Position numbers and translations under genes: made by a program. Below are positions 11,040 to 46,770 of a DNA stretch of 46,770 nt, piece after piece; the first letter of the stretch is position 1; each line of letters opens with the position of its first letter. A model generated the notes under the pieces. It did no database searches. It saw nothing but the letters and a program-made list of their open reading frames with translations, and had not been told where the DNA came from. This DNA is from an uncultured Oscillospiraceae bacterium (lineage in GTDB: Bacteria > Bacillota > Clostridia > Oscillospirales > Oscillospiraceae): contig CANQMO010000021.1 in assembly GCA_947624985.1 (NCBI GenBank), positions 1 through 46,770 on the forward strand. The letters are read 5' to 3'.

Positions 11040-11141
11040 GGCGCGGTGGTAGAAATTTCCCCGGGCGGATGCAAATCCGGCGGAAATGTGCTATACTGGT
11101 GCTGCTATTTTGCAGGGTTGTACCGGAAGGGAAGCGGGCGC

Positions 11142-22243: not shown

Positions 22244-22244
22244 A

Positions 22245-24619: not shown

Positions 24620-24703
24620 AAGCGTTCACTCCTTTCTCTTTTTGGATGTCATGATCGTGTGTGAAAGAATAATATCGTCCCTCCTGTCCGATAAAATGTA
24701 CAG

Positions 24704-32197: not shown

Positions 32198-34442
32198 CGT
32201 CATTTTGCTGGACGGGGCCATGGGTACCATGCTACAGGCCGCCGGTCTGCCGCTGGGCGCCATGCCGGAGGTGTGGAACATCACCGCGCCGGAAAAGGTG
32301 ACGGCGGTCCAGCGGCAGTATGTGCAGGCGGGCAGCCGGGTGCTGTACGCCAATACCTTTGGGGCCAACCGCTATAAGGCCGCCGGCAGCGGCTACGCCG
32401 TCTCCGACCTGGTGGCTGCCGGTGTCCGGGCGGCCCGGGCCGCCGGAGAAGGCCACGACGTAAAGGTGGCTTTGGACGTGGGACCCATCGGCCAGCTTCT
32501 GGAGCCTCTGGGGACGCTGACCTTTGACGAGGCATATGACACCTTTAAGGAGATGGTCACGGCGGGGGAGGCCGCCGGGGCGGATCTGGTGATATTCGAG
32601 ACCATGAGCGACCTGGCCGAGGTGCGGGCCGCGGTACTGGCCGCCAGGGAGAACACCTCCCTGCCCGTGTGGGTCACCATGACCTTCGAGGCCACGGGGC
32701 GCACCTTCGTGGGGACCACAGTGCCGGCCATGGGCCTTACTCTGTCGGGACTGGGCGTGGACGCCATGGGCTTCAACTGCTCGCTGGGCCCCGGGGAACT
32801 GCTGCCGCTGGCGGAGGAGCTGACCCACTGGACGGACGCGCCCATCATCCTCAAGCCCAACGCGGGGCTGCCAGACCCGGCCACGGGAAAATATGACACC
32901 ACGCCGGAGGCGTTCGCCCAGGCGCTCGTCCGGGGCCTGGACCTGGGCGCCGCCGCGGTGGGCGGCTGCTGCGGCACCACGCCGGAGTTTATCCGGGCGC
33001 TGGACGGGGCCGTCGGGGGAAGGCGGCCCGCGCCCCGGCGAAAGGCGGACCGGCGGGGCGTGTGCTCCGCGACCCGGACGGCGGCGCTGGACGGGTACCT
33101 GCTGGACTTCGACAAGCGCTTTCCCGGCACGAAGACCGTCATGATGATGCGCAATTACCGCTCCACGCCCCAGATCCTGGCGGCGGCCAATTCCCTCATC
33201 GACAAAAACCGCACCCGGATAAAAAAGGACCTGATCCCCACGCTGCCGGCGGGGGAGAGCGTTTTGTGCCACCACGCCCGGAGCGCGGAGGAGGAGGCGG
33301 AGTGGATGGCGCTGCAAATGCAGGCCCTTCACGACGGCGGCGTGCCCTATAAGGACATGGCGGTGCTCTACCGGGCGCACTATGTGACCCGCTCCGTGGA
33401 GGAGACGCTCATCCGGCGCAAGGTGCCGTACACCATCTACAGCGGCGTGAAGTTTTTCAGCCGGATGGAGATAAAAGACGCGCTGTGCTATCTGCGCATG
33501 ATCGTCTACCGGGACGACCTGTCCTTCCGGCGGATCGTCAACAAGCCCAGGCGGAACATGGGCCAGCGGCGGATGAAGTACCTGGAGCAGGCCGCGGAGC
33601 GGTTCGGCTGCTCCCTCTATGACGCGCTGCTGCGGACTTTGGACGAGGATATCTTCAAGGGCACCAAGGCGGCCCGGTTCGTGGGGCTCGTGGAGGCGTT
33701 CTCCGCGGACTACGCGGGCCGGCCCGTGTCGGAGGTGCTGTCGGCGCTGCTGAACGAGAGCGGCTATGAGCAGGCTTTGCGGACCGAGGGCAGCCAGGAG
33801 CGGCTGGACAATCTGGCGGAGCTGAAGCAGTCGGTGTACGAATACGAGACCTCCTGCGGGGAGGAGGCGACGCCGGAGCACTATCTGGCCCATGTGGCGC
33901 TTTTCTCCAATCAGGACGCCGCCGAGCCCGGGGACAGGGTGAAGCTCATGACCGTCCACGCCGCCAAGGGGCTGGAATTCCCTTATGTGTTTGTGTGCGG
34001 CATGAACGAGGGGGTGTTCCCCTCCCGGAAGGTGCGGACCCTGCCCGCCATGGAGGAGGAGCGGCGGCTGGCCTTCGTGGCCATGACCCGGGCGGAGAGG
34101 CGGCTTTACCTCACCGAGGCGGAGGGCCGGAATCTGGACGGCTCGCCCCGGTACCCCTCCCGGTTCGTTCTGGACATCGACCCGGCGCTGGTGGAGCATA
34201 CCCAGCCGCCACGGGAGGGGCTCATCGCGGACGCCCGGGAGTATATCGAGATGAGCGCGCGGTATCTGCCGGAGGATGTGCAGGCGGAGGTCTTCGCGCC
34301 CGGCGACCGGGTGGAGCACGCCCATCTGGGCCCTGGAACGGTGGTGGAGGCGGACCTGAAAAAGGGCGCGCACCTTGTACAGTTCGATTCCATGACCACG
34401 CCCCGGTCCATCGCCTTTCGGGTGAAGCTGAAAAAGCTGTAA
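32184..34442 (+). CDS. MetH homocysteine methyltransferase domain fused in frame to C-terminal PcrA/UvrD helicase
   Basis: A 752-residue open frame. Residues 1-~285 are a complete homocysteine S-methyltransferase domain: ILLDGAMGTML start, zinc ligands Cys199 (GFNCS) and Cys262-Cys263 (GGCCGTTPE). The folate and B12 domains of MetH are missing. From residue ~300 the sequence is a UvrD/PcrA helicase from just after motif III: MMMRNYRSTPQ (IV), TVHAAKGLEFPYVFVCGMNE (V), FVAMTRAERRLYLT (VI) and the PcrA C-terminal domain. Walker A, DExx and the GDxxQS motif are absent, so no ATPase is possible. The join is at about 33050-33085. It is a deletion fusion or an assembly chimera. Start GTG 32184 follows GGAGGGG. 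Confidence 0.85.
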   Translation: MAEDNVILLDGAMGTMLQAAGLPLGAMPEVWNITAPEKVTAVQRQYVQAGSRVLYANTFGANRYKAAGSGYAVSDLVAAGVRAARAAGEGHDVKVALDVGPIGQLLEPLGTLTFDEAYDTFKEMVTAGEAAGADLVIFETMSDLAEVRAAVLAARENTSLPVWVTMTFEATGRTFVGTTVPAMGLTLSGLGVDAMGFNCSLGPGELLPLAEELTHWTDAPIILKPNAGLPDPATGKYDTTPEAFAQALVRGLDLGAAAVGGCCGTTPEFIRALDGAVGGRRPAPRRKADRRGVCSATRTAALDGYLLDFDKRFPGTKTVMMMRNYRSTPQILAAANSLIDKNRTRIKKDLIPTLPAGESVLCHHARSAEEEAEWMALQMQALHDGGVPYKDMAVLYRAHYVTRSVEETLIRRKVPYTIYSGVKFFSRMEIKDALCYLRMIVYRDDLSFRRIVNKPRRNMGQRRMKYLEQAAERFGCSLYDALLRTLDEDIFKGTKAARFVGLVEAFSADYAGRPVSEVLSALLNESGYEQALRTEGSQERLDNLAELKQSVYEYETSCGEEATPEHYLAHVALFSNQDAAEPGDRVKLMTVHAAKGLEFPYVFVCGMNEGVFPSRKVRTLPAMEEERRLAFVAMTRAERRLYLTEAEGRNLDGSPRYPSRFVLDIDPALVEHTQPPREGLIADAREYIEMSARYLPEDVQAEVFAPGDRVEHAHLGPGTVVEADLKKGAHLVQFDSMTTPRSIAFRVKLKKL

Positions 34443-34873: not shown

Positions 34874-34902
34874 TAGACATGGCGGCGGCGGTGGTGTATA
34901 AT
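34874..34902 (+). promoter_or_regulatory. Promoter of the transglutaminase-like gene
   Basis: TAGACA (34874-34879), 17-bp spacer, perfect TATAAT (34897-34902), 55 bp before the ATG. Confidence 0.7.
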
Positions 34903-34957
34903 GTCGGAGACACGGACAGTGTGTCGAGAGAGCAACTGGCAAAAGGGGTCTCATGGA

Positions 34958-36076
34958 ATGAAGAGATTTTTGAGCGCGGTGCTGGGAATGCTGATGGCGT
35001 TTCTGTGGGGAGCCGGTCCCGCGTGGGCCGGTGAGGAGCAGATACAGGCGTCTCTGGCGGATATCCCCGTGGAAAAGATCGCCGGGTACATCGTGGAGAC
35101 GGGCTGCGGCAGGGACATCGACGATCTGGAGCGGCTGGACGCGACGGTGGACGAGGCGACGCTGGCGTACTATCTGGAGGCCGTCTACGGCCTGGAGAGC
35201 GGATCCTGGACGGACTGTGCCGTCTACCGGGCCGGCGGGGCGGAGGCATTTGAGATCGCCGTGGTGCGGTTCGTCGACCAGAAGGCCGCCGATACCGGCG
35301 GGGAGGCTCTGACGGCGTATCTCGCCGTTCGGGAGGGGGACTTTACCGGTTACGCCCCCGAGCAGGCGGACATAGTTCACGGCTCCCGGGCGGCGGTGTC
35401 CCAGTACGGGGACGCGGCGCTTCTAATCTGTCAGGATGCCGAAAGGGCGGAGGACGCTTTTCTGGCGAGCTACGACTGGTTTTACCGGGAGCCCTTCGAC
35501 CCGCCAGGTAAGGACGACATGACCGTCTATGACACCGCCGCCATTTTGGCGGCCTGGGACAGCGGCGAGGCCGCCGGTCTTTCGGACAAGGACGCCGCGA
35601 TACTGGATCTGGCCGCCGCGGTCGTTGAGGAACAGACCACGCCGGACATGACGGACTATGAGCGGGAAAAGGCGCTGTACGCCTGGGTCACCGGCAATGT
35701 GATCTATGATCAGGACCACTACGACCCCCTGGGGCGTATCGACCCCGCCTCCTACGACCCTTACGGCCCTCTGGCCAATGGCAAGGGCGTATGTATCGGC
35801 GTGGCGTCCACGTTCCAGTTGCTGATGGATATGGCGGATGTGGAGTGTATCACCGTGATCGGCGCGTCCCGGGGCAACACGGCGGACCACGCCTGGAACA
35901 TGGTCCGGCTGGACGGGGCGTGGTACTGCGCGGACCCCACCTGGGACGTGGAGAAGGACGAGGACGATTGGGACTATTTCAACGTGACCAGCGATTGGAT
36001 GGCCGGTACAGACCACCAATGGGACTATGACGCGGTGCCGGAGGCCACCGCCGCCGACGGCGGCGCGGGCGCGTAA
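34958..36076 (+). CDS. Secreted DUF4358 plus transglutaminase-like protein
   Basis: A 372-residue protein. Residues 1-24 are a signal peptide (MKRFLSAVLGMLMAFLWG..AWA). Residues ~30-165 look like a DUF4358 domain. Residues ~220-360 are a transglutaminase-like core with Cys279 (GKGVCIGV), His311 (DHAWNMV) and Asp326 (ADPTWD), the full triad. Such proteins act outside the membrane as peptidases or crosslinking enzymes on wall or surface proteins. The ATG at 34958 is chosen because it begins the signal peptide; an in-frame start at 34901 would precede or overlap the -10 box. It ends at a shared terminator. Confidence 0.88.
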   Translation: MKRFLSAVLGMLMAFLWGAGPAWAGEEQIQASLADIPVEKIAGYIVETGCGRDIDDLERLDATVDEATLAYYLEAVYGLESGSWTDCAVYRAGGAEAFEIAVVRFVDQKAADTGGEALTAYLAVREGDFTGYAPEQADIVHGSRAAVSQYGDAALLICQDAERAEDAFLASYDWFYREPFDPPGKDDMTVYDTAAILAAWDSGEAAGLSDKDAAILDLAAAVVEEQTTPDMTDYEREKALYAWVTGNVIYDQDHYDPLGRIDPASYDPYGPLANGKGVCIGVASTFQLLMDMADVECITVIGASRGNTADHAWNMVRLDGAWYCADPTWDVEKDEDDWDYFNVTSDWMAGTDHQWDYDAVPEATAADGGAGA

Positions 36077-36566: not shown

Positions 36567-36595
36567 AGTATAATATAGTTTCCCCCACCCCGCAA
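36567..36595 (-). promoter_or_regulatory. Promoter of the symporter pseudogene
   Basis: On the minus strand TTGCGG (36590-36595) and TATACT (36567-36572), 17 bp apart. Its -35 box lies in the loop of the hairpin at 36579-36608. Confidence 0.6.
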
Positions 36596-36608
36596 GAGGT
36601 GGGGGAAA
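36579..36608 (-). terminator. Hairpin after brnQ, end of the pilus operon
   Basis: TTTCCCCCACC pairs with GGTGGGGGAAA around an 8-nt loop, 9 bp past the brnQ stop. It has no long T tail on the minus strand, so termination efficiency is uncertain. Confidence 0.5.
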
Positions 36609-36617
36609 CGCGCCGTA

Positions 36618-37964
36618 TCAGATTTTTTTCAGCCGCCGGATGACCGCCGCCAGAAGGAACGCGGCCGCCGCCGGCAGAGCCCAGCCCAGCCCGATGTCAT
36701 ACAGGGGCAGGACCCGGGCGTAGACGCTCCGGACCGCGTCCAGGTGCAGAAAAGCCCTCGCGCCTTCCGGCAGCGCGGCGATCAGATCCCCCACGGCGCA
36801 CACCAGCGTCACCGCCGTGACGATCCGGTGACCGGTCCGGTCCAGGCGCAGCCTCCGCTCCGCCAGAGACGCCAGGATCAGGGTCATGGCCAGAGGGTAG
36901 AGCATCATCAGCACCGGCAGGGAAAAGCGGATGATGTCCGTCAGACCCAAATTGGCGACGCCAAAGGAGATCAGGCTGAACAGCACCGCCCACCCGTTGT
37001 AGCTGAGAGAGCGGGGAAACATCTGTACAAAAGCCTCGGAGCAGCTGGTGATGAGGCCGATGGCGGTCTTGACGCAGGCCAGAAGGATCATCAGCGCGAA
37101 CAGATAGGCGCCCGCGCCGGGGAAATAGTACCGGACGATATCCATCAGCGCCGCGCCGCCGTTGTCCGCCAGCGGGAGGACGCTCCGGCTCCGGGCCCCG
37201 GCCAGGGCCGTCATGGCGTAGATGACCGCCATGAGGATACAGGCGAAAACGCCGGCCCGGACCGTGCAGACGGCCACATCCCCGGGCTCCTTCACGCCCA
37301 GAGAGCGGATCACGTTCACCACCACGATACCGAAGGCCAGTCCCGCCAGGGCGTCCATGGTATTGTAGCCTTCCAAAAAGCCCTGCGCCAGCGGGGCGGA
37401 GACGTAGGCCCCCACGGGCTCCGCGTCCGCCGCGCTGCCCATTGGCCGCAGCAGGGCGTAACCAATGGTGACGAAAAAGGTGACCAGGAACAGCGGGTTC
37501 AGGACCTTGCCGATCCAGGTCAGTATCTTCCCGGGCCGCAGGGAGAACCAGAGCATTACGCCGCAGAAGGCGGCGGAAAAAAGAAAAAGCGCCGTGCCCG
37601 TTGAGACGCCCTCCGGCAGGATGGGCGCCACGGCCGCCTCGAAGGGGACGGTGAAGCACCGGGGGATGGCGAAGAAGGGACCGATGGTCAGATACAGCGC
37701 GCAGGTGAAAAAGTACCCGTAGCCCCTGCCGACCCGGCTGCTGAGGGCCAGCAGCCCGTCCGCCCGGGAGATACCCAGCGCCGCCACCGCCAGCAGGGGC
37801 AGTCCCACGCCGGTGACGAGGAAGCCCCCCAGGGCCGGGAGCATGTTGGCCCCGGACGCCTGGCCCATATAGGCGGGGAAGATCAGGTTCCCGGCCCCGA
37901 AGAAGAGGCCGAACAGCATACTGGCCACGGAGATCGTTTCTCGGAGGGTCAGCGTGCGTTTCAT
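36618..37964 (-). CDS. brnQ: Branched-chain amino acid/cation symporter BrnQ
   Basis: A 448-residue protein with about 12 helices and the family opening FGLFFGAGNLIFPAYMGQASG. It imports Leu, Ile and Val with sodium ions or protons. Length is normal. The ATG at 37964 has AAGGAGG and lies 14 bp after the pilT stop, so it is transcribed with the pilus genes and has no room for a T-box or other leader. Its presence at the end of that operon is odd and may be fortuitous read-through expression. Confidence 0.95.
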   Translation of the reverse strand: MKRTLTLRETISVASMLFGLFFGAGNLIFPAYMGQASGANMLPALGGFLVTGVGLPLLAVAALGISRADGLLALSSRVGRGYGYFFTCALYLTIGPFFAIPRCFTVPFEAAVAPILPEGVSTGTALFLFSAAFCGVMLWFSLRPGKILTWIGKVLNPLFLVTFFVTIGYALLRPMGSAADAEPVGAYVSAPLAQGFLEGYNTMDALAGLAFGIVVVNVIRSLGVKEPGDVAVCTVRAGVFACILMAVIYAMTALAGARSRSVLPLADNGGAALMDIVRYYFPGAGAYLFALMILLACVKTAIGLITSCSEAFVQMFPRSLSYNGWAVLFSLISFGVANLGLTDIIRFSLPVLMMLYPLAMTLILASLAERRLRLDRTGHRIVTAVTLVCAVGDLIAALPEGARAFLHLDAVRSVYARVLPLYDIGLGWALPAAAAFLLAAVIRRLKKI

Positions 37965-37978
37965 AGCGTTGTTCCTCC

Positions 37979-39031
37979 TTACAGCTTCCGGGCCAGCATA
38001 TCCGGGTTGGTGCTGTGGGCCAGAGCCTCCTCACGGGTGATCCTGCCGCTTTTGCACAGCCGCAGCAGGTCGGCGTCCATGGAGAACATGCCGTCGGCGG
38101 AGGAGGAGTAGATGAGCCCGTCGATCTGGTGGATCTTGTTCTCCCGGATCATGTTGCGCACAGCGGTGGTGACGGTCATCATCTCAAAGGCGGCGGTGAC
38201 GCCTCCGTCGGCGGCGGGCAGCAGCTGCTGGCTCACCACGGCCTGTAGCACGCTGGCGAGCTGCACGGCGATCTGCCGCTGCTGGCCGGAGGGGAACACG
38301 TCGATGATCCGGTCGATGGTGTTGGCCGCACCCAGGGTGTGCAGGGTGGACAGGACCAGATGGCCGGTCTCGGCGGCCGTCATGGCGATGGAGATGGTCT
38401 CATAGTCCCGCATTTCGCCCAGCAGTATCACGTCCGGGCTCTGGCGCAGAGCGGCCCGCAGGGCCACGTTATAGCTGGCGGTGTCGGAGCTCACCTCCCG
38501 CTGGCTGATGATGCTCTTCTGGTGCCGGTGCAGGTACTCGATGGGGTCCTCCAGCGTGATGATATGCTTTTCCATGGTGCGGTTGATCTGGTCGATGATA
38601 CAGGCCAGGGTGGTGGACTTGCCGCTGCCGGCGGGACCGGTGACCAGCACCAGGCCCTTTTTCAGACCGCTGAGCCCGATGACCGGAGCGGGGATACCGA
38701 GCCGGACAGGGTCCGGCAGGTCGAAGGTGATGACCCGGATCACCGCGGCCAGAGAGCCGCGCTGTACATAGGTGCTGACCCGGAAGCGGGACAGCCCCTG
38801 TATGGCGAAGGAGAAGTCGTCGTCTCCCGTCTGCCGCAGGCGGGAGATATCCCGGTGGGCGAGCCGGTAGATCTCGCTCACCAGCGTCTCCGTGCTCTCC
38901 GGCATGACCCGCTCGTCGCCGAAGGTCAGCAGCTTTCCGCCCTTTTTGTAAGACAGCGCGCGCCCGGCGACGATGAAAAGATCGCTGGCGCCCTGCTCGG
39001 TGGCCTCCGTGAGAAAATCCAAAACAGTCAT
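37979..39031 (-). CDS. pilT: PilT-type ATPase of a type IV pilus-like system
   Basis: A 350-residue secretion ATPase, PilT length. An N-terminal PAS-like domain is followed by Walker A GPAGSGKST (about 132-140), the Asp box ITLEDPIEYLH, Walker B ILLGEMRDYETI and the His box ETGHLVLSTLHT. ATG 39031 has GGAGG upstream; the frame upstream of it overlaps the previous gene. It is the only pilus ATPase in view. In most systems PilT retracts pili and PilB extends them, so here either PilB is elsewhere or this enzyme does both. Confidence 0.93.
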   Translation of the reverse strand: MTVLDFLTEATEQGASDLFIVAGRALSYKKGGKLLTFGDERVMPESTETLVSEIYRLAHRDISRLRQTGDDDFSFAIQGLSRFRVSTYVQRGSLAAVIRVITFDLPDPVRLGIPAPVIGLSGLKKGLVLVTGPAGSGKSTTLACIIDQINRTMEKHIITLEDPIEYLHRHQKSIISQREVSSDTASYNVALRAALRQSPDVILLGEMRDYETISIAMTAAETGHLVLSTLHTLGAANTIDRIIDVFPSGQQRQIAVQLASVLQAVVSQQLLPAADGGVTAAFEMMTVTTAVRNMIRENKIHQIDGLIYSSSADGMFSMDADLLRLCKSGRITREEALAHSTNPDMLARKL

Positions 39032-39033
39032 GG

Positions 39034-39495
39034 TCAGTCCTCCATGTCCACGGCGCCAGGCAGCGCGCCCGTGCCGAAAAGATCCAAAGTATCGTCCGGC
39101 GCCCATTCGTAGCCGGACACCGCCTGCCAGCGTTCGATCCGGCAGGGCTGGCCGTCCGCGGGCAGCGTCAGCTCCACGGCCAGGACCTGATCCTCCCCCA
39201 GCGGCACCTGATAGACGGCGCGGCCGTCCTCCGTCAGGGTCACGGCCGACGCGGCGGCGAAGGCGTCGGGGTCATCGGCGGTGAGCAGGCCCGTCAGGAT
39301 GGCGTTGGCCCGGTTTTCCGCCTCATAGTAGTCCGTGGTCCGGCCGGCGCTCTTGCGGCTCAGACGCAGATCGGCCTGGGCGCTGACCAGAGAGAGGACG
39401 GAAAAGGTCAGCAGCGACAACATCACGAAGATCAGCACGACGGAGGTGACGCCGGTGCTGATAATGGAGCCCCCGGGCTTTTGTCTATTGCCCAT
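39034..39495 (-). CDS. Minor pilus-associated membrane protein
   Basis: A 153-residue protein with a short basic start (MGNRQKPGGSIIST), one helix at residues ~12-38 (VTSVVLIFVMLSLLTFSVLS) and an outside domain. The next block, AQADLRLSRKSAGRTTDYYEAENRAN, resembles the helical spine after the helix in PilX/TadG-like minor pilins. It overlaps the preceding pilin-like gene by 11 bp and ends 2 bp before pilT. The start at 39495 is chosen by the overlap and the basic N-terminus. Confidence 0.75.
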   Translation of the reverse strand: MGNRQKPGGSIISTGVTSVVLIFVMLSLLTFSVLSLVSAQADLRLSRKSAGRTTDYYEAENRANAILTGLLTADDPDAFAAASAVTLTEDGRAVYQVPLGEDQVLAVELTLPADGQPCRIERWQAVSGYEWAPDDTLDLFGTGALPGAVDMED

Positions 39496-39925
39496 AGTCC
39501 ACCTCCAGGTCGGGCCAGCGCAGGTCCAGAGCGTACAGCGTCCGGCCCTCCGGGTCCTCCATGCGGATGCTGGCGTTCCGGTCCAGAGACACGGTCTCGG
39601 TGTGGATGCGCAGGGTGTATGCCGCGTCCCGGACACCGCAGGGGGCGAAGCCGCCGTCGTAGCACACCGCCACATCCTGCCCGTCGGCGAAAGCGCCGGG
39701 AAAATACGCCCGCACCTGCTCCAGACTGCCGTCGGTGTACTTGACCACAGACGCGGCGCTGGAACAGGCGGAGGAGGCGAAGCTCAGGTCCCGGGCCTGG
39801 ACCGTGAGGGTATGGGCCCTGGCAAAGGCCCGCACACACACGGCGCTGCCCAGAGAGAAGAACAGCAGCGCGATGATGAGCTCGATGAGAAACAGGCTCG
39901 AGCGTGTGTTGTTGTGACTGCCCAC
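39485..39925 (-). CDS. Pilin-like protein (prepilin-type N-terminus)
   Basis: A 146-residue protein starting GTG 39925 (AAAGGAGG upstream). The N-terminus SSLFLIELIIALLFFSLGSA has the F-x-x-x-E pattern and hydrophobic helix of type IV prepilins, with the Glu four residues into the helix, though the usual Gly cleavage residue is not obvious. A beta-rich globular part with two Cys follows. Likely a minor pilin or pseudopilin. Confidence 0.75.
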   Translation of the reverse strand: MGSHNNTRSSLFLIELIIALLFFSLGSAVCVRAFARAHTLTVQARDLSFASSACSSAASVVKYTDGSLEQVRAYFPGAFADGQDVAVCYDGGFAPCGVRDAAYTLRIHTETVSLDRNASIRMEDPEGRTLYALDLRWPDLEVDYGQ

Positions 39926-39959
39926 GGCGGACCCCTCCTTTCCCGCGGGACGCGCCGGT

Positions 39960-40448
39960 TCAGCCGTCGCTGCGCAGATGGGTGAGATAGCGGACGGTGC
40001 GCCCGCCGCTGTCGGAGGCGGAGAACTCGTAAAAGCCCCCGCCCGCGTTGGTGATGGTGAAATCCTCCACGGGCATGATCTCGTCGCCCATGGAGACGGT
40101 GACGTCGGCGTCCGCCCGGACGGTGAGCTCGTACAGCCGCTCCCCGTCGGAGTAGATATAGGTGAGATATGTGCCGTTCCCCAGGTGGTCGGACAGCACC
40201 AGCGCGGGCAGATCCTCCACCTGGCCGATGGATACGCCGCCGGAGGCGTCGTGCTGGCGTATCTTCTCCGCCACATAGGAGATGGCCGTGCGGGTGGAGA
40301 AGGTATCCTGCATGTCGGAGACGGTGTTCCGGTACGCCCCGACGCCGATCATCACCAGGATGAAGGCCGCGGCGGCGAACACGCAGAAAAGGCCGACGGT
40401 GAAGAGCAGGTCGGCGGTGTGGGTCTGTGTACGGTCGTTTTTACCCAT
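39960..40448 (-). CDS. DUF4860-like pilus-operon membrane protein
   Basis: A 162-residue protein with a cytoplasmic start, one helix at ~13-38 (LLFTVGLFCVFAAAAFILVM), a helical spine (DTFSTRTAISYVAEKIRQHD) and a beta-rich end. The shape and position fit a minor pilin; the sequence resembles DUF4860, found next to pilus genes in Clostridia. It starts 9 bp after the 40458 gene. Confidence 0.7.
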   Translation of the reverse strand: MGKNDRTQTHTADLLFTVGLFCVFAAAAFILVMIGVGAYRNTVSDMQDTFSTRTAISYVAEKIRQHDASGGVSIGQVEDLPALVLSDHLGNGTYLTYIYSDGERLYELTVRADADVTVSMGDEIMPVEDFTITNAGGGFYEFSASDSGGRTVRYLTHLRSDG

Positions 40449-40457
40449 GGCGCCGCC

Positions 40458-40784
40458 TCACCGCAGGGGGATGACGGACACGTCCGGCATCAGGTTGGAG
40501 CCGATGACCTCATAGGACACCACATATTTTTCCCGGTCATAGGTAAGGCCGTAGTGGTCCTCCAGATAGGTCAGGCTGTCCGGATAAAAGCCCTCCAGAG
40601 CATAGCAGTGGACGGCGCTTTGAACGATGGAGTTTTCCAGCCCCTCGGCCTCCTGCCGGGCGGTGACGCCGGACAGACTGTTCAGCCCCGCCAGAAACAG
40701 CGCCAGCACCAGCAGGAAGAACACTGCCGGAGCGAGCCGCCCCAATGCCCGGAAGCGGGATGGGGCCTTTTGAAATCGGTTCAT
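40458..40784 (-). CDS. Small single-helix pilus-operon protein
   Basis: A 108-residue protein with a basic N-terminus, one helix (~18-38: APAVFFLLVLALFLAGLNSL) and a short outside part containing LENSIVQSAVHCYALEGFYP, which resembles pseudopilin sequence (helix followed by C/A-x-x-x-G-x-Y-P). It lies 15 bp after the PilC-like gene. Possibly the major or a minor pilin, although it lacks a canonical prepilin site. Confidence 0.7.
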   Translation of the reverse strand: MNRFQKAPSRFRALGRLAPAVFFLLVLALFLAGLNSLSGVTARQEAEGLENSIVQSAVHCYALEGFYPDSLTYLEDHYGLTYDREKYVVSYEVIGSNLMPDVSVIPLR

Positions 40785-40799
40785 AGGCCGCCCCTCCCG

Positions 40800-41837
40800 T
40801 CAGCCGATGTTGCTCATGATCCCCATCAGGGGGAGCATGACGCTCAGAAGGATCATGCCCACCGCCACCGACAGCACCGCCACCAGGGTGGGCTCCAGCT
40901 TGGCGACGGCGCCGGCCATATCCTGCTCGATCTCGCCGTCAAGCTCCTCGGCGATCTGGCGCATTACCTCGTCCACGGCGCCGGTCCGGACGCCGATACC
41001 GATCATGCGGGCGTAAACGCCGGTGAACATCTGCGTCTGAACGATGGCGTCGGAAAGGCTGCCGCCCTCGGCCACCGTCTGCCGGATGGCCTGCACCTTT
41101 TGCCCCACGGTGGGGTGCTCCACCAGCCGGGAGACGGTGTCCAGGCTCTCGTCGATGTTCAGCCCGCTGCTCAAGGCCAGGTGCATCCCGCTGGCGAAGC
41201 GGGCGCAGGCGATCTTTTCCGCCAGCTTCCGCGTGCCGAAAAACCGGGTGGCGAAGCCCCGCAGGTTCTGCCGGCCCTTCCGGGAGACCAGAAAATACGC
41301 GCACACCGCCGCCAGGACCACCGCCGCGACGATGAACACCACGCTGTACCGGCTCATGGCCTGCCCCATCCGCAGCACCGCGCCGGAGACGCCTGTGAGC
41401 CCGGCGCCAAGCTGGCGGAACACCTGGTCGAACACAGGCAGCACCTTGACGACCAGCACCAGCATGACCACTACCATCATACCCAGCATGACCAGCGGAT
41501 AGGTCACGGCGCTCCGAATGCTCCTGGCCAGGGCGTCCTCCCGCCGGTAATAGGCGGCCAGAGACCCCATCACGTCGTCCAGCCGGCCGGACTGGTCGCC
41601 CAGCCGGACCATGCTGCACATATACGCCGGGAAACACCCGGCGGCCTCCGCGGCCTCATGGAAGCTGTCGCCGGTCTCCATATGTCCGATCATGCCCTCC
41701 AGCAGCTTTCGCCCGTCACCGGCGGGGGCGTCCTCGCTCATGATATGCAGGCCCTCCAGCGTGGAGATACCGGAGCGGAGGATCATGGCCAGCTGGCCGC
41801 AGAAAAAGGCCAGCTCCGCGTTGGACAGGGGTTTCAT
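40800..41837 (-). CDS. PilC/GspF-type inner-membrane platform protein
   Basis: A 345-residue protein with two copies of the T2SSF domain: FCGQLAMILRSGISTLEGLH (N-terminal copy) and CARFASGMHLALSSGLNIDE (second copy), each followed by conserved helices, and three membrane helices. It anchors the pilus ATPase and passes force to pilins. ATG 41837 has AAAGGAG upstream. It lies 13 bp after the transglutaminase-like gene. Length is slightly shorter than usual PilC (~400). Confidence 0.92.
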   Translation of the reverse strand: MKPLSNAELAFFCGQLAMILRSGISTLEGLHIMSEDAPAGDGRKLLEGMIGHMETGDSFHEAAEAAGCFPAYMCSMVRLGDQSGRLDDVMGSLAAYYRREDALARSIRSAVTYPLVMLGMMVVVMLVLVVKVLPVFDQVFRQLGAGLTGVSGAVLRMGQAMSRYSVVFIVAAVVLAAVCAYFLVSRKGRQNLRGFATRFFGTRKLAEKIACARFASGMHLALSSGLNIDESLDTVSRLVEHPTVGQKVQAIRQTVAEGGSLSDAIVQTQMFTGVYARMIGIGVRTGAVDEVMRQIAEELDGEIEQDMAGAVAKLEPTLVAVLSVAVGMILLSVMLPLMGIMSNIG

Positions 41838-41850
41838 AATGAGGCTCCTT

Positions 41851-42738
41851 TCAGTGGAGGTATTGGACGACGTAGTTGGACCCGTCGCCGATATATTCCA
41901 ATATGGCGCTGCTGCTGTCCGCGTTGGAGGCGAAGGTGGGGTCCATACGGGTCCAGTCGTTGCCGGAAAATTCGATGAGCTTGTCGATCCAGCCCGCCTC
42001 GGGGATATACACGCTGATCCAGCTGTGGTAGATACTGCCGGAATAGCCGATCTCCAGCCGGGTGGGGATATGCTGGGAGCGGAGCATGGCGGCGGTAAGG
42101 GCGGCGTAGTCGAAGCAGATACCCGTGCCGGTGGCCAGGGTATCGTCCACGGTGGGCAGGTATCCGGCCCGGACGGTGGCGGCCTTCTCGTCGTCATAGG
42201 TCACGTTCTCGATCACGAAGTGGTATATCCGCTCCACCGCGTCCAGATCGTCCGCCGCGCCGGAGACGGTCTGCGCGGCGGTCTGCACGGCCTGGCTGTC
42301 GCCGCTGAAAAGCACATACTGGTTGGGGTAGAGGTAGGGCAGCAATTCGTTTTCCAGCGCCGCGTCCAGCGACTGCTTGAAAAGCGTGGCGTAGGTGCTG
42401 CCCTCCACGTTCTCATACCCGTCCACGGCATAGGTCCCGCTGCCGGCGGTGAGGGGCAGGGGGATGAAGTCCTCCGACGGCGGCAGGAAGTATTTATAGG
42501 TGACCGCGTCCGGGCCGGTGAGCTGGACGACGGCCTTGGCGGCGGCGCCGCTGTACCGGGCCATCACATAGCCCTGCCCGGCGTTGGACACGTCCACCAC
42601 CAGCGGCTCTTCGCCCAGCACGACGCTGCCGGGGGCCTGGGGGAGATAGTCGCCGTCCGCCAGGGCGGTCACGCCGCCGGCCAGGGACAAAAGCCCCGCC
42701 AGCACGCATATCAGTATGGTTTTCATCGCGTTGCGCAT
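41851..42738 (-). CDS. Secreted transglutaminase-like protein inside the pilus operon
   Basis: A 295-residue protein with a signal peptide (MKTILICVLAGLLSLAGGV after a four-residue lead), a ~130-residue beta-rich N-domain, and a transglutaminase-like core with Cys208 (TGICFDYAAL), His238 (IYHSWISVY) and an Asp in RMDPTFA (about 264). The triad is complete. It may crosslink or cleave pilin or surface proteins. It lies between the ECF sigma gene (20 bp) and pilC (13 bp), so it is clearly part of the operon. Confidence 0.88.
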   Translation of the reverse strand: MRNAMKTILICVLAGLLSLAGGVTALADGDYLPQAPGSVVLGEEPLVVDVSNAGQGYVMARYSGAAAKAVVQLTGPDAVTYKYFLPPSEDFIPLPLTAGSGTYAVDGYENVEGSTYATLFKQSLDAALENELLPYLYPNQYVLFSGDSQAVQTAAQTVSGAADDLDAVERIYHFVIENVTYDDEKAATVRAGYLPTVDDTLATGTGICFDYAALTAAMLRSQHIPTRLEIGYSGSIYHSWISVYIPEAGWIDKLIEFSGNDWTRMDPTFASNADSSSAILEYIGDGSNYVVQYLH

Positions 42739-42758
42739 GGGGAATGACGCCTCCGCTC

Positions 42759-43319
42759 TCAGTTGACGAACTCGCGCTGCAGGGCGGCCCGGGCCATGTT
42801 TATGTACCGCTTCACGGACGCGGGGCTCACGCCCATGGACCCGGCGATCTCCTCCAGCTTCATGCCGAACTCATACCGCAGGGTGAAGGCCTGCTGCACC
42901 TTCACGGGCAGCCGGGACAGAATGCCCATCACCCGCTCCCAGGTGTCCCGGTCATAGACCTGGCGCAGGGAGAGGTCCGCGCTCTGGGGCGGGAGGGTAT
43001 TGTCCGACAGGTCCACTGTCCGCTCCCGCCGGGGCAGGTCCCGCCGGAGCATATCGCAGCAGACGTGGTAGGCGATCTGCCGCATCCAGGGCACCAGCAG
43101 CCGGTCCAGCCGCAGGCTGCCGATGTTCTCATACACGGACATATAGATCTCCTGAAGGGCGTCATGGACGTCGTCCGGGTCGTGCAGCAGGGAGCGGACG
43201 CGGCGGTACATGGTGTCGTACGTCGCGCCGTAAAGCTCCGCAAAGGCGTCGGAGTCGCCTTCCCGGATACGGCTGGCAAGTAAACTATAATACTGTTGGT
43301 CAAAACTGCTGTTCGCCAT
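42759..43319 (-). CDS. ECF-type sigma factor of the pilus operon
   Basis: A 186-residue sigma-70 protein with region 2 (LHDPDDVHDALQEIYMSVYE, then LVPWMRQIAYHVCCDMLRR) and region 4 (LSRLPVKVQQAFTLRYEFGM, then LEEIAGSMGVSPASVKRYINMARAALQ). There is no region 3. The GAGG/AAGG region before ATG 43319 is a modest ribosome site. It sits 64 bp after a single-pass membrane protein gene and 20 bp before the transglutaminase-like gene. It probably controls this operon and perhaps the divergent adhesin. Confidence 0.9.
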   Translation of the reverse strand: MANSSFDQQYYSLLASRIREGDSDAFAELYGATYDTMYRRVRSLLHDPDDVHDALQEIYMSVYENIGSLRLDRLLVPWMRQIAYHVCCDMLRRDLPRRERTVDLSDNTLPPQSADLSLRQVYDRDTWERVMGILSRLPVKVQQAFTLRYEFGMKLEEIAGSMGVSPASVKRYINMARAALQREFVN

Positions 43320-43383
43320 TCGCCTTACCTCATACCATCGTATGCCCGTCTAAGCGGTCACGGGGAAAAAGCAGCGCAGGGGT

Positions 43384-44097
43384 TCAGTTTTCCTCAGTCA
43401 GTTGCAGCAGCACGGTCAGGGGATTGCCGCTGTTGTCGGCCACGGACACCCGGGCCGGCGCGTCGGGGAAGGGGAAGCGGATAAAGCCCTCCGCCTCGTT
43501 GACGTCCAGACCGTCCAGAGCGCGGCCCGTGGCCGCGTCGGACACCTTCACGGAACCCCAGTCCACCCCGGAGCCGTCATCCGCAAGGTAAATGTACATC
43601 TCGCCGTCGCGCAGCTCGTCCTCACGCACGGTGGGGGGCTCGGCGTCCACGGCGGTGATGTTCAGCGTGGTCTCCGTGACCTGGCCGAAAAAGGTCCGGG
43701 CCGACAGCGTCAGCGTCCCATTTTTCGGCGCCTCCACCCGGTAGGAGCCGGGAGAGAGGGTCTCGGTCCGCACCGGCGCGCCGGCCATCTCCGCCGATAC
43801 GCTGTCCAGCAGCACGGCCTTGCTCACGGAGAAATCCACCGTCACGCCGCCGTCCGCCGCCACGGCCTCCACCTTCTTGAAGGAGACCGGGGAGAACAGC
43901 CACGCCCCCACGCCCAGCGCCACCAGCACCGCCAGCAGCTTGGGCAGAAGATACTTTCTCCACGCCTCGGCCCGGTTTTTCATAGCCGGCGCCTGGCTCT
44001 GCATGCCCAGCTTCGGCATCAGCTCCCGCAGCAGTGCCTCCCGTTCCTCTTCGGGAGAGGGAACACGTTCATTTTGAATATTTTCATTTATATTCAT
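43384..44097 (-). CDS. Single-pass membrane protein, candidate anti-sigma factor
   Basis: A 237-residue protein. Residues 1-~50 are cytoplasmic and acidic/helical (SPEEEREALLRELMPKLGMQ); one helix spans ~51-70 (LPKLLAVLVALGVGAWLF), and ~165 outside residues look like one or two Ig-like beta domains. This topology, in the same operon as an ECF sigma factor, fits a transmembrane anti-sigma factor that senses an outside signal. No zinc motif is visible. It precedes rather than follows the sigma gene. The ribosome site AAGGAG is inside a hairpin. Confidence 0.75.
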   Translation of the reverse strand: MNINENIQNERVPSPEEEREALLRELMPKLGMQSQAPAMKNRAEAWRKYLLPKLLAVLVALGVGAWLFSPVSFKKVEAVAADGGVTVDFSVSKAVLLDSVSAEMAGAPVRTETLSPGSYRVEAPKNGTLTLSARTFFGQVTETTLNITAVDAEPPTVREDELRDGEMYIYLADDGSGVDWGSVKVSDAATGRALDGLDVNEAEGFIRFPFPDAPARVSVADNSGNPLTVLLQLTEEN

Positions 44098-44123: not shown

Positions 44124-44615
44124 TTTCATTGCTTTTATCGCATATTCAATCCCGGAAAATAACGAATATTAAACCAAAAACAGTAGAATAATGACGGAAT
44201 ACAAATGAATATATTGAATATCCCCGAAATATCCCTCGAAGACCGCGCCTGTGTCTCCCGGCGGGATCTGCGGAAGGTCCGCCGGTGCGAACAGCAGGGG
44301 CCAGCATAAGTAGTATTATATAGAAAACACGCCGTTTTTCAAGCGAAACCGTAAAAAATGCGCGAAATTAACCGGAAAGGGATATTTTGGTGCCGTCCGG
44401 GAGTCCAAAAAGGGGATAAGGAAGATTTTTTTGGGATTTTTTCAATTTTTTTCAAAAAAAGTGGTCCGTTTTGCCCCCCTTCTTACGTCCTTATATATAG
44501 ACGGATAATTATATATATGTATGTCGTCATCGCCGATCCCCCCGGAGGGGAAGGTAAATCCTTACATTATATTTAATGCACCGGAACGGTCTATCAGCAA
44601 GAGGAGGTACATAAA
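44124..44615. other. AT-rich divergent promoter region between pilus operon and adhesin
   Basis: No gene is supported. The region is markedly AT-rich compared with both sides and should hold both divergent promoters. The stretch at 44459-44515 (pyrimidine-rich CCCCCCTTCTTACGTCC followed by TTATATATAG) may be the adhesin promoter, perhaps ECF-dependent through its CGTC-type -10, but no firm -35 is seen. A 72-codon frame at 44358 is likely chance. Confidence 0.45.
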
Positions 44616-46770
44616 ATGAAGACTTCCAAGAGATTTTTGGCCCTGTTCCTGGCTTTTCTCATGGCGTTCAGCAGCTTTCCCACTGTTGTTATCGCCGCTG
44701 AGGAAGGCATGACGGAGCCCAAGGAGACGCAGACCCAGTCCGAGCCCGCGCCGGAACCCACGGCGGAGCCCGCGCCGGAGCCTGCGGCGCAACCCACAGC
44801 GGAACCGACACCGGTCCCGACGGAGGAGCCTGCCCCCACGGCGGCGCCCACGCCGGAGCCTGTAGCCGCACCTACCGAGGTCCCGGCCCCCACGGAGGCT
44901 CCTGCCCCCACGGCGGCGCCCGAACAGGGTGGAAATGAAAATCTGAATGAATATTCATCCACCCCTGTCCCCCAGTCCAACGGCGGGATGGAGCAGCCCG
45001 GTATCGAGGGCAACACCCTCCTCCAGCTTGTTTTTGAACTGACTGTGGATGGCGTGAAGCAGGCGCCCATCCCCGTGCAGATCGACCCGGCCACCGCCGG
45101 CGGCCCGGTGACCCTGTCCGGCGACATCAAGACCCGCGTGGAGCAGCTGATCGCCGCCGGCTACGAGCTGACCTGGTATAAGGACGCGGGCCACAGCGTC
45201 AAGGTGGAGAAACTGGAAGACCTCACCGTCACCGGCGAGGCCAATCAGCGTATCTACGGCGCGGCGGAAAAGCCCGCCCCGGAGACCACCCCCGAGCCGG
45301 AAGTTACCGAAGTACCTGAAAACGACGTGACCACTTACAGCGTTACCTATAGCAGTGGCACCCAGACTGGCGCCACCAATATACCGGAGACCGGCTCCGT
45401 GGCCGAGGGCGAGACCTATACCATCCCGGACACGACGCCGACTGTCGACGGCTATATCTTCACCGGCTGGCAGGACGGCGAGGGCCATACCTATCAGCCC
45501 AACGGAACCATTGAGAGTGTCTCCGGCGACATCACGCTGACGGCCCAGTGGAAGGAGATCATCTCCGTTACCATCAGCATCATCGGCAAGACGGTTGCAA
45601 TGCCCTACAAGGGCGAGAAATACGCTCCGAACGATGTGGCGGGCCTGTACACCTATGAGATAACCGGCGCAACGGAGACCGGCCTGGGCGTTGAGCTTGA
45701 CAGTTCCGCCGCTTTCACAGGCGACGCCGTTAATGTGGGCGATTATTCGATCACCCTGACGAATGATAGCTTTAAGGTCACCGGTAATGGCGGCACATAT
45801 AACCCCACCGTCACTTACACCGGCGACGCAAAGTTGACCATCACGCCGAAGACGCTGAACGCCACGGTCACGGGCAATACCGCGAGCGCGGAGTATGACG
45901 GCAAGGCCCATGAGGCGGAGGGCTTCACGTTTGATACCAGCGACATCGTTAAGAGCGATGACGTTAAAGTGACGCTGGTGTCGGGCAAGAGCGCCAAGGC
46001 CAGCCAGACCGACGCGGGCACGGCGAAGATGAATCTGACAAAGGAGGACTTCGAGCTCACCGGCGAGAAGGCGGACAACTACACCCTGACGGTGACGAAG
46101 GTCACCGACGGCCAAGTGGAAGTCACGAAGAAAGCGGCCAGCGTGACGTCCGCCAGCGCCGAGAAGGAATACGACGGCAAGCCTCTGACGGATCCCACGG
46201 TCACCTGCGAAGGTTTCGTGGACGGCCAGGGCGTGACCTATGAGGTCACCGGCAGCCAGACCGTGGTAGGCTCCAGCAACAACACCTTTGAGTATGCGGC
46301 GAAGGATGGCACGAAGCTGGACAACTACACGATCACTAAGACCGAGGGCACGCTGGAGGTCAAAGACCGGACGGAGAAGTTCCAGATCACCATGGAGCCC
46401 AATGGTGGCACATACACCTATGACGGTGAGGAACACAGCGTGAACGGCTTTAAAGCCACTACGTTCCCCATTGGCGAAGGGGATAATCAGTTCGAGGTTA
46501 CCGTGGAAGGCGCGAGCGCCAGCGCGACGGGCACCGAGGCGGGGACCTATCCTGTGACCACCGTTGTTACCGGTGTCACGGTGAAGGACGAAAACGAAAA
46601 CGACGTGACTGCTCAGTTCACAGTGACTGCCGGCACGGCCAACCTGGTCATTAACAAGAAGACGCTGAGCGCCACGGTCACGGGCAATACTGTGAGCGCG
46701 GAGTATGACGGCAAGGCCCATGAGGCGGAGGGCTTCACGTTTGATACCAGCGACATCGTTAAGAGCGATG
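44616..46770 (+). CDS. Large secreted repeat protein (adhesin-like), incomplete at the window end
   Basis: At least 718 residues, open to the right edge. ATG 44616 has GAGGAGGT 6 bp upstream. Residues 1-28 are a signal peptide (MKTSKRFLALFLAFLMAFSS). Residues ~30-110 are a Pro/Glu/Thr/Ala stalk (repeats such as EPAPEPTAEP). At ~255-310 is an InlB B-repeat-like unit ending GYIFTGWQDG..TLTAQW. From ~310 on are MBG-type Ig-like repeats (VTGNTASAEYDGKAHEAEGF and relatives). Such proteins are usually wall- or surface-bound; the anchor would be beyond the window. It is divergent from the ECF/pilus operon. Confidence 0.9.
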   Translation, partial: MKTSKRFLALFLAFLMAFSSFPTVVIAAEEGMTEPKETQTQSEPAPEPTAEPAPEPAAQPTAEPTPVPTEEPAPTAAPTPEPVAAPTEVPAPTEAPAPTAAPEQGGNENLNEYSSTPVPQSNGGMEQPGIEGNTLLQLVFELTVDGVKQAPIPVQIDPATAGGPVTLSGDIKTRVEQLIAAGYELTWYKDAGHSVKVEKLEDLTVTGEANQRIYGAAEKPAPETTPEPEVTEVPENDVTTYSVTYSSGTQTGATNIPETGSVAEGETYTIPDTTPTVDGYIFTGWQDGEGHTYQPNGTIESVSGDITLTAQWKEIISVTISIIGKTVAMPYKGEKYAPNDVAGLYTYEITGATETGLGVELDSSAAFTGDAVNVGDYSITLTNDSFKVTGNGGTYNPTVTYTGDAKLTITPKTLNATVTGNTASAEYDGKAHEAEGFTFDTSDIVKSDDVKVTLVSGKSAKASQTDAGTAKMNLTKEDFELTGEKADNYTLTVTKVTDGQVEVTKKAASVTSASAEKEYDGKPLTDPTVTCEGFVDGQGVTYEVTGSQTVVGSSNNTFEYAAKDGTKLDNYTITKTEGTLEVKDRTEKFQITMEPNGGTYTYDGEEHSVNGFKATTFPIGEGDNQFEVTVEGASASATGTEAGTYPVTTVVTGVTVKDENENDVTAQFTVTAGTANLVINKKTLSATVTGNTVSAEYDGKAHEAEGFTFDTSDIVKSD
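45851..46770 (+). repeat. 810-bp internal super-repeat in the adhesin gene
   Basis: The ~110 bp from 45851 recur from 46661 with only about three base changes, a step of exactly 810 bp (270 codons). The second copy runs into the window edge. Near identity implies recent duplication or gene conversion. Confidence 0.85.

Follow-up and report, generated by a model that had tools for sequence, protein, structure and literature searches.

A compact type IV pilus-derived gene cassette with a transglutaminase-like enzyme in gut Clostridia

Layout of the locus

The window, meaning the whole stretch of 46,770 nucleotides analysed from an uncultured Oscillospiraceae bacterium, contains ten packed genes on the minus strand that end in a terminator-like hairpin (Table 1). 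Every open reading frame was found at its proposed place, the spacing between genes ranges from an 11-bp overlap up to 64 bp, and start codons lie at 41837 (PilC, ATG), 39925 (pil3, GTG), 39495 (pil4) and 39031 (PilT). The operon and its gene families, as observed in the original prediction, are real. Matches to Pfam or NCBIfam above cut-off were absent for the transmembrane (TM) protein and for the three small proteins other than DUF4860. Promoter-like sites numbered 2 against 1.7 in shuffled sequences and terminator-like sites 7 against 5.5; because these numbers are close to those of the shuffles, the counts are weak evidence for either signal. A divergent, huge repeat adhesin had also been proposed; the divergent orientation and the List_Bact repeat stand, while the claimed size goes beyond the 718 aa visible before the frame runs off the contig end.

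Table 1. Genes and signals of the operon and its flank, in window coordinates
Feature	Position	Strand	Evidence
Single-pass TM protein	43384..44097	-	N-terminus cytoplasmic, C-terminal part external, read from sequence
ECF sigma factor	42759..43319	-	Sigma70_r2 + r4_2; TIGR02937 72.6 bits vs cut-off 42.9
Secreted transglutaminase-like protein (TGase)	41851..42738	-	Transglut_core PF01841 1e-20; signal peptide read from sequence
PilC/GspF-type platform protein	40800..41837	-	T2SSF PF00482 1.5e-46
pil1, small pilin-like, PilE/GspG-like by position	40458..40784	-	Without prepilin-peptidase site
DUF4860 protein, PilW/GspJ-like minor pilin (predicted)	39960..40448	-	PF16152 6e-29; without prepilin-peptidase site
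pil3, PilV/GspI-like minor pilin	39485..39925	-	Glu+5 present; Ser at -1
pil4, PilX/GspK-like minor pilin	39034..39495	-	Gly before TM helix; without Glu+5
PilT-class ATPase	37979..39031	-	TIGR01420 412 bits; PDB 2gsz 7.9e-99; tree
BrnQ branched-chain amino acid carrier	36618..37964	-	PF05525 2e-136; TIGR00796
Intrinsic-terminator-like hairpin, 14 pairs	36578..36609	-	Begins 8 bp past BrnQ
Sigma-70-like promoter candidate	44315..44342	-	11/12 consensus; upstream of operon
Divergent surface protein	44616..46770	+	List_Bact repeat PF09479; runs into contig end

A conserved seven-gene cassette

Seven of these genes (TGase, PilC, pil1, DUF4860, pil3, pil4 and PilT) form a conserved cassette whose order is nearly always kept. 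Conservation was assessed in 156 loci, comprising the window, 75 loci retrieved through DUF4860 (DUF4860-drawn) and 80 retrieved by similarity to the window pil1 (window-like); at least four places occur under two identifiers (L033/L165, L097/L202, L103/L204 and L114/L173). In the window and the 75 DUF4860-drawn loci, pilC, pil1 and DUF4860 were each present in 76/76, pil3 in 75/76, pil4 in 74/76, pilT in 70/76 and TGase in 61/76. The 80 window-like loci gave 78/80 for pilC, 80/80 for pil1, 79/80 for both DUF4860 and pil3, 77/80 for pil4, 61/80 for pilT and 72/80 for TGase. One locus counted in the 75 and 76, L124, is a canonical pilus operon drawn in because it weakly matches DUF4860; the Gly-x4-[DE] motif counts below omit it, and those of pil3 Glu+5/-1 and of PilT retain it. 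The row sets were A1 with 40 rows (the window and 39 of 60 listed), A2 with 77 (the window and 76 of 79) and A3 with 73 (the window and 72 of 78).

Across the 156 loci, frames are open and gene order is retained in many genera. The synteny survey suggested with the original prediction recovered the seven-gene set in nearly constant order in 155 other loci (75 and 80), so the view of a minimal type IV pilus-like unit, rather than scattered neighbours, holds; chance neighbourhood as its origin is ruled out by this recurrence and conserved order. The widely conserved core excludes the ECF gene, the TM protein and BrnQ, and the proposal of one operon containing these three is correct for the window and does not extend to the core. 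BrnQ, present in 0/155 other loci, is ruled out as a cassette member and is a passenger gene of the window operon. Many gut Clostridia carry a compact, conserved pilus-type set together with a TGase-like enzyme, often without the usual assembly motor or processing enzyme. The literature searched yielded no published description of the cassette, in agreement with the original remark that no described system of such make-up was known to its author, and no mention of DUF4860.

Pilin-like proteins and their processing

Profiles of the four small proteins were built from 40 loci, with L124 left out, and then matched to L124. Each profile found a different pilin of the L124 operon (PilB-PilT-PilC-pilin), with the order preserved and E values from 2.4e-7 (pil1) to 3.2e-13 (DUF4860). 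Membership of DUF4860 (PF16152) is supported by 100 bits against a gathering cut-off of 25, and the protein is predicted from these matches to be a PilW/GspJ-type minor pilin. With its pilin-type subunits, GspF/PilC platform and PilT/VirB11-like ATPase, the set belongs to the type IV filament superfamily, and the cassette of TGase, PilC, four minor-pilin homologues and a PilT-lineage ATPase is a type IV pilus derivative.

Structure models were obtained for pil1 (a 55-residue N-terminal helix plus beta hairpin, pLDDT 86.8) and DUF4860 (pLDDT 89.9). Foldseek with both models gave zero matches at E<=0.001; the top listed probabilities for DUF4860 were GspJ, XcpW and TTHA1219, but at E 0.3-0.5. 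Searching PDB sequences with the two profiles gave best E values of 0.12 and 0.53, to unrelated or designed proteins. The models agree with filament-superfamily homology, though no structural match is significant.

The strict motif Gly-x4-[DE] plus 10 uncharged residues was found in pil1 in 1/155 rows, DUF4860 in 3/154, pil3 in 26/153 and pil4 in 1/150. When Ser and Ala were also allowed at -1, as the published PilFind motif permits, the numbers were 5/155, 6/154, 77/153 (including the window pil3, with Ser at -1) and 7/150, respectively. Glu+5 is present in 150/154 pil3 rows, those without Glu in the aligned column being L119, L192, L136 and L140, the last two of which have a misread start; the -1 residue is variable, with Gly in 27/154. 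Among pilins of type IV pilus (T4P) loci, represented by 36 canonical pilins picked by regular expression, Gly is at -1 in 33/36. The class III signal peptide of type IVa pilins (Gly-1, Glu+5) is therefore not a property of the set, and is near-absent in pil1, DUF4860 and pil4. Because pil3 passes the loose motif in half of its rows, one of the four pilins may still be cleaved in hosts that have a peptidase; Gly, Ala or Ser at -1 of pil3 was seen in 11/15 carriers of Peptidase_A24 (A24) versus 10/25 without it (p=0.055).

Neither PilB, prepilin peptidase (A24) nor PilM was found across the window genome (assembly 87.6% complete), as the original prediction had it for the locus, so that the extension ATPase and peptidase of a type IVa pilus are undetected there. 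The proposed hunt for pilB and pilD elsewhere left PilB undetected in 29/41 carrier genomes and A24 undetected in 26/41 (20/32 among high-quality ones). A24 was found in 15/41 cassette carriers versus 45/156 other genomes (p=0.35), i.e. without association with the cassette. At E<=10, nothing was found in the closed genome G168, and six of ten rechecked A24-negative carriers were empty (G173, G168, G189, G066, G156 and G032). Below-cut-off matches in G071, G110, G038 (the stronger of its two) and G012 were judged on visual inspection to be antisense to a sugar-enzyme gene or transporter-like proteins, although three of the stretches hold a GxGD string; G317 and G266 appeared in the same search as carriers with A24. 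PilM was above cut-off in 12/41 carriers, and in 3 of the 21 whose only strong secretion ATPase is PilT (G058, G110 and G114).

The motor ATPase

The window ATPase belongs to the PilT/PilU family, scoring well above the TIGR01420 cut-off of 319 bits and falling in the PilT clade; the ComGA model gave 144 bits against a cut-off of 300, and a ComGA-type assignment is not supported. The tree contained 40 of 122 length-filtered rows (from 131 loci with pilT), 17 T4P PilT and 17 PilB (last 380 residues only), and placed the 40 cassette PilTs as one clade (99/98) inside PilT, apart from PilB. All 122/122 PilTs carry E-x-R-D in the Walker B region, 119/122 have Walker A, and a strict AIRNLIR-type pattern, a PilT retraction motif, occurs in 63/122. 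A DNA-uptake pseudopilus in place of ComG would have a platform and small pilins alike in size and order, and ComEC occurs in 186/197 genomes of the order sampled. ComEC is near-universal with or without the cassette and hence uninformative on DNA uptake, none of the cassette genes was recognised as a competence gene, and we regard this reading as very unlikely.

A PilB-size (full-length) match was found in 11/41 carriers, and one further carrier has a fragment. In 21/26 A24-negative carriers, one with a closed genome, no strong secretion ATPase (T2SSE) other than the cassette-type PilT was found; G114, where the cassette is cut and PilT lies on another contig, is counted among the 21. In closed G168 and near-complete G173, G110, G189 and G038, the single strong T2SSE match is the cassette PilT, and no A24 exceeds the cut-off even when matches up to E 10 are considered. 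These genomes argue against an ordinary type IV or Com-type pilus with overlooked PilB and prepilin peptidase genes at other places in the genome, as do the lack of A24 enrichment among cassette carriers and the near-complete loss of the processing site from three of the four pilins. The incompleteness of the window genome and the carriers with full-length PilB or A24 speak for such missed parts, and one prepilin peptidase can serve more than one system, MSH loci being described as without their own (PMC6668835); on the whole we consider this explanation unlikely.

For all ten PilT-less cassettes tested, a PilB-size ATPase is encoded elsewhere in the genome, versus 12/39 other carriers (p=8e-5, with G012 and G072 omitted from the comparison group), a pattern that is phylogenetically non-independent, several sharing one insertion site. 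The ten come from 19/80 window-like loci without pilT in the stretch; L156 (2.5 kb past pil4) was left out, and in the other eight the stretch ends <=0.7 kb after pil4. The 10/10 pattern favours an accessory of other type IV pili, serving as spare tip complex and retraction motor, but the 21/26 A24-negative carriers hold no other strong T2SSE to serve, which makes such a role quite unlikely. In G012 (100% complete) PilC and the pilins are present, but PilT and TGase are absent from the stretch, and a T2SSE match was found nowhere in the genome.

Transglutaminase-like enzyme, regulators and neighbours

TGase homologues retain the catalytic Cys (61/61), His (61/61) and Asp (60/61), in keeping with the transglutaminase-like superfamily, which includes proteases too. 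Crosslinking of pilins or the adhesin by this enzyme, as originally suggested, is possible. The lost processing sites and the G012 stretch could be read as a decaying remnant of a pilus locus; intact PilT Walker motifs and TGase triad, open frames and kept order contradict decay and render it extremely improbable.

An ECF gene like that of the window is present in 17/156 loci. It adjoins TGase in 0/75 DUF4860-drawn loci and in 16/80 window-like loci (two with one small gene between) plus the window; as this adjacency is limited to window-like loci, the ECF gene travels with one subclade. Homologues of the TM protein lie upstream of ECF-TGase in 12/80 relatives and the window, a position that makes it an anti-sigma-factor candidate. 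Comparison of the regions preceding the ECF/TM operons gave AT-rich dyads but no promoter motif in common, so ECF control of the operon is putative. The original claim of an operon controlled by its own ECF sigma factor does not generalize, and the 0/75 count rules out such control as a general cassette feature. A BTAD-type regulator lies near the cassette in 47 other loci (Pfam-confirmed on L188, assigned by clustering in the other 46).

Four homologues of the window surface protein occur in other loci, those in L126, L132 and L133 being divergent beside the TM/ECF pair. Ten large neighbouring proteins were scanned (L144, L145, L142, L126, L040, L189, L116, L132, L166 and L120); surface-adhesin domains were found in 4/10 (L144, L145, L126 and L166), beta-helix repeats in L116 and GGDEF-EAL in L040, and the remaining four gave no match. 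Two sortase clusters reach 21/156 loci. These sortases, the large surface-type proteins adjoining several cassettes, the TGase export signal (read from sequence) and a set resembling GspF with GspG- and I-J-K-like proteins would fit a secretion-type pseudopilus, a T2SS-like piston helping TGase or surface proteins through a thick wall. Against it, the cassette motor is of PilT lineage rather than GspE, and no constant substrate besides TGase accompanies the cassette. Known pseudopilins require prepilin peptidase, which further counts against the piston, and we hold it to be unlikely.

A proposed machine

The original interpretation is partly supported. On balance, the sequence evidence favours a machine derived from type IV filaments, in which a PilT-class motor probably moves a short pseudopilus whose pilins stay uncleaved. 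Conserved gene order, homology to the L124 pilins, loss of the processing motif, carriers without detected A24, PilT as the lone strong ATPase in 21/26 of these, the 10/10 PilT-less pattern and the PilT tree all speak for it. The four single-pass pilins would remain uncleaved in the membrane and form a short bundle on PilC, like a pseudopilus tip complex. A PilT-class hexamer would turn PilC and drive the bundle in or out by a short stroke, with no long fibre grown. Outside, the exported TGase-like enzyme may work on pilin heads or on an adjacent protein of the wall or surface, so that whatever the bundle presents is fixed or trimmed. The cassette may be switched on by the ECF sigma factor with its TM partner in the window subclade and by the BTAD-type regulator in many other lineages.

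Several points count against this short-stroke pseudopilus: a non-A24 peptidase could exist, A24 is present in some carriers (15/41), and pil3 passes the loose motif in 77/153 rows. Also on that side are G012 without T2SSE, PilM in 3/21, AIRNLIR in 63/122, the lack of a Foldseek match at E<=0.001 and the phylogenetic non-independence of the 10/10 pattern.

Our broader and more tentative proposal, at somewhat less than even chances, is a type IV filament machine without prepilin processing or extension motor, having uncleaved pilins, a two-way PilT-class ATPase and a surface TGase-like partner. Prepilin peptidase and assembly ATPase are listed among type IV filament core components (PMC6668835, PMC4471445), Nanoarchaeota being the one phylum without detectable peptidase in the list of PMC4471445. 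If the proposal is true, two parts held as core in the superfamily are dispensable. The cassette would be a natural minimal system of platform, four minor-pilin homologues and PilT, both core parts being undetected in more than half of the carriers examined; whether PilT alone drives both directions and whether pilins work uncleaved become testable questions. These observations suggest a pared-down pilus-derived machine with rules not yet described, and the cassette supplies a context for DUF4860.

Comparison with known systems

The PilC platform, PilT-family ATPase and minor pilins are common to the cassette and the type IVa pilus of monoderms such as S. sanguinis and Clostridium, as described in PMC6916266. 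Unlike that pilus, the cassette is without detected PilB and peptidase in more than half of carriers, a full class III signal peptide is missing from most of its pilins, and a TGase gene lies in the operon. The Com pseudopilus (ComGA-GG) likewise combines one ATPase, one platform and several small pilins within a single operon, whereas the cassette ATPase is PilT-lineage and a ComC-type (A24) peptidase is undetected in 26/41 carriers. With the T2SS pseudopilus (GspF, GspG-K) the cassette shares a G plus I-J-K-like set, the DUF4860 model weakly resembling GspJ/XcpW (E 0.3-0.4); its motor is PilT-type, not GspE, and none of the operon genes was recognised as a secretin or GspL/M gene.

The Tad ATPase CpaF is of a different family from the cassette PilT, and Tad systems have their own peptidase and small Flp pilins. 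As described in PMC9815625, the MSHA pilus of Vibrio cholerae needs PilT for extension as well as retraction, which provides a precedent. MSH loci, like the cassette, are described as without their own peptidase (PMC6668835), which in MSH genomes is supplied by another system, and extension in type IVa pili, MSHA among them, has its own dedicated motor, unlike the cassette (PMC9815625, PMC6668835). Comparable to the cassette in relying on one motor, Tad/CpaF is described as a single bifunctional ATPase for both assembly and disassembly (PMC12019362).

Distribution and gene order of the cassette

The second small protein of the cassette bears DUF4860 (PF16152), which marks the cassette and was found in 41/197 genomes of the order, 38/150 of the family and 14/398 of the phylum; it was not found in G282, the other genome of the window genus in the family sample. 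Loci were retrieved through this domain (40 + 35), and gene presence was scored by iterated profiles. Across the window and these 75 loci (n = 76, including L124, a canonical pilus operon), pilC, pil1 and DUF4860 occurred in 76 each, pil3 in 75, pil4 in 74, pilT in 70 and the transglutaminase-like (TGase) gene in 61. The order TGase-PilC-pil1-DUF4860-pil3-pil4-PilT is almost invariant; in L065 and L091 the TGase gene is downstream. Further, the pil1 alignment, searched against named genomes, returned 372 relatives, with isolates such as Lachnoclostridium sp. An196 and An138, Flavonifractor sp. An100, Pseudoflavonifractor phocaeensis An901 and Emergencia sp. 1XD21-10 among them. The best 80 relatives (labelled Oscillospiraceae, Lachnospiraceae, Gracilibacteraceae and others) showed pilC in 78/80, pil1 in 80/80, DUF4860 and pil3 in 79/80 each, pil4 in 77/80, pilT in 61/80 and TGase in 72/80. 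The TGase gene lies immediately 5' of pilC in 121 of the 153 loci examined.

The cassettes of L158, L162, L187, L191 and L203 share an insertion point between genes that by eye resemble rpoC and rpsL; the same point is used, together with an ECF gene, in L155 and L156. Also, 19 loci encode a small conserved protein, which follows DUF4860 in 14 of them and shares its strand in 15; the one member scanned had no Pfam match.

No description of the cassette was found in the literature searched, which was judged mostly from abstracts and excerpts, with subscription journals mostly outside its scope; nor was 'DUF4860' mentioned anywhere in it.

Features with coordinates within the window or the named cassette locus
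Sequence	Positions	Strand	Feature
Window	19624-26848	-	ORFs resembling a type I-C CRISPR-Cas set (Cas3-, Cas5-, Cas8c-, Cas7-, Cas4- and Cas1-like; by eye)
Window	32184-34442	+	Single ORF encoding a homocysteine S-methyltransferase domain (8-276) followed by a UvrD helicase C-terminal domain (320-646)
Window	34901-36076	+	Second exported protein, Transglut_core + DUF4358
L072 (genome G012)	8904-11666		PilC and four pilins
L115	8043-9746		pil1 protein of 567 residues (usually ~108), with a long additional C-terminal part
L188	4389-5651		BTAD-type regulator (example)
L198	10679-11410		Small conserved protein (example)

The window operon and its regulators

All ten ORFs of the window operon were confirmed close together on the minus strand, with a sigma-70-like promoter candidate upstream and a strong hairpin 3' of BrnQ. 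The window is one entire contig of a 2.28-Mb genome (44 contigs, 87.6% complete). The second exported transglutaminase-domain protein is encoded convergently, just past the operon's terminator. The methyltransferase-helicase ORF, in which the helicase N-terminal domain had no match, may be a genuine fusion, the product of a deletion or a chimera created in assembly.

BrnQ had been counted as part of the system, a view we abandon: among the window and the 75 + 80 loci it accompanies the cassette in the window alone. The proposed control by a dedicated ECF sigma factor would apply at most to part of the family: an ECF gene like that of the window adjoins TGase in the window and 16/80 window-like loci but in 0/75 DUF4860-drawn loci; one small gene separates the two in L155 and L156. 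The transmembrane (TM) protein occurs in the window and 12/80 window-like loci. Because carriers of the ECF/TM pair include Lachnospiraceae (as labelled), the pair appears, across families, to have either remained with the cassette or travelled with it. Another 47 loci have a gene for a BTAD-type regulator close to the cassette, encoded on the opposite strand in 33 of them; all 47 lack the TM protein. Judged from these gene neighbourhoods, a single effector module appears to be paired with two or more regulators.

Transglutaminase and surface neighbours

An export signal is read in the TGase sequence, of lipoprotein type in several relatives, and the catalytic triad is intact (61/61, 61/61 and 60/61 homologues). 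Its PDB relatives are weak (3isr, 7e-4), and the protein is a predicted enzyme that may either crosslink, as originally proposed, or cut. Two sortase clusters are present in 21/156 loci, the label being Pfam-confirmed on L098, L115 and one further gene of L104. Large surface proteins with Cna_B, SpaA, VWA or List_Bact repeats adjoin some cassettes; those of L126, L144 and L145 are divergent, whereas that of L166 is encoded on the strand of its cassette. Four other large neighbours had no domain match. In the window, the divergent adhesin gene is present, but its huge size is not borne out, because the contig ends there and truncates the gene. The surface-protein neighbours would fit a surface role of the cassette.

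Motor and prepilin peptidase

The cassette ATPases group as a single clade (99/98) within the PilT side of a 74-row tree, separate from PilB (100/100). The stretch examined lacked pilT in 19/80 window-like loci, of which eight end near pil4 and eleven have room beyond it. Ten of the eleven were examined for ATPases elsewhere, and in all ten genomes there was a match of PilB size (439 bits or more) alongside one or more strong but shorter T2SSE matches. PilB was found in 12/39 other carriers (Fisher p = 8e-5 against 10/10, the lineages being non-independent). This distribution suggests that the cassette requires a PilT-class motor, own or shared. The exception is G012, 100% complete with no T2SSE match anywhere, whose locus (L072) lacks PilT and TGase in the stretch. 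Precedents include a PilT serving extension (PMC9815625) and a single ATPase serving extension (PMC12019362).

Peptidase_A24, the prepilin peptidase family, was undetected in 26/41 carriers (20/32 among high-quality carriers), and was no more frequent in carriers than in other genomes. Ten A24-negative carriers were rechecked at E ≤ 10; six had no match, including the closed G168, and four gave below-cut-off matches only, which by eye resemble other proteins. The cassette-type PilT is the single strong PF00437 match in 21 of the 26, among them G114, where it lies on a different contig from a truncated cassette. A second match was found in each of G071 and G174 and a PilB fragment in G052; G012 and G072 had none, the G072 cassette being truncated by a contig end. 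A full-length PilB match is present in 11 of the 15 A24-positive carriers, and three others (G023, G092, G133) show an additional strong ATPase that differs in length; G063 has neither. A24 thus tracks the other pilus systems rather than the cassette.

The cleavage site itself was also compared. Pilins of the comparison type IV pilus loci have Gly at -1 in 33/36. The pattern Gly-x4-[DE] followed by 10 uncharged residues was found in 1/155 pil1, 3/154 DUF4860, 26/153 pil3 and 1/150 pil4 proteins, and with Ser or Ala also permitted at -1 in 5/155, 6/154, 77/153 and 7/150. In pil3, Glu+5 is kept in 150/154, with Ser (45), Pro (35), Gly (27) or others at -1 (n = 154); pil4 has Gly ahead of the helix in 74/74 of the first locus set, and the acidic +5 is absent. 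Site loss is thus clear for pil1, DUF4860 and pil4 and partial for pil3.

Relationship to type IV filaments

In the predicted structures, pil1 consists of a helix of 55 residues plus a small beta hairpin, and DUF4860 combines a long helix and a beta domain. Foldseek with these models returned nothing at E ≤ 0.001; the top probabilities listed, none reaching that threshold, fell on pilins and pseudopilins, namely PilA4 for pil1 and TTHA1219, GspJ and XcpW for DUF4860. An unusually long pil1 protein is encoded in L115.

The canonical operon L124 carries ATPases of PilB and PilT size, PilC, a pair of pilins bearing the usual leader and then more pilins, with genes among these read by eye as PilM-N-O. 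Profiles built from 40 loci, L124 excluded, each match a different pilin of L124, four in all, with the order of the genes kept (pil1 2.4e-7, DUF4860 3.2e-13, pil3 4.6e-8, pil4 3.9e-7). From position and motif, we take pil1 to be PilE-like, DUF4860 PilW-like, pil3 PilV-like and pil4 PilX-like. Beyond superfamily descent, the mechanism of the cassette is what we infer. Assignment to the type IV pilus family proper does not hold on the features tested, namely PilB, prepilin peptidase and signal peptide; the wider claim, that the cassette descends from a member of the type IV filament superfamily, is upheld.
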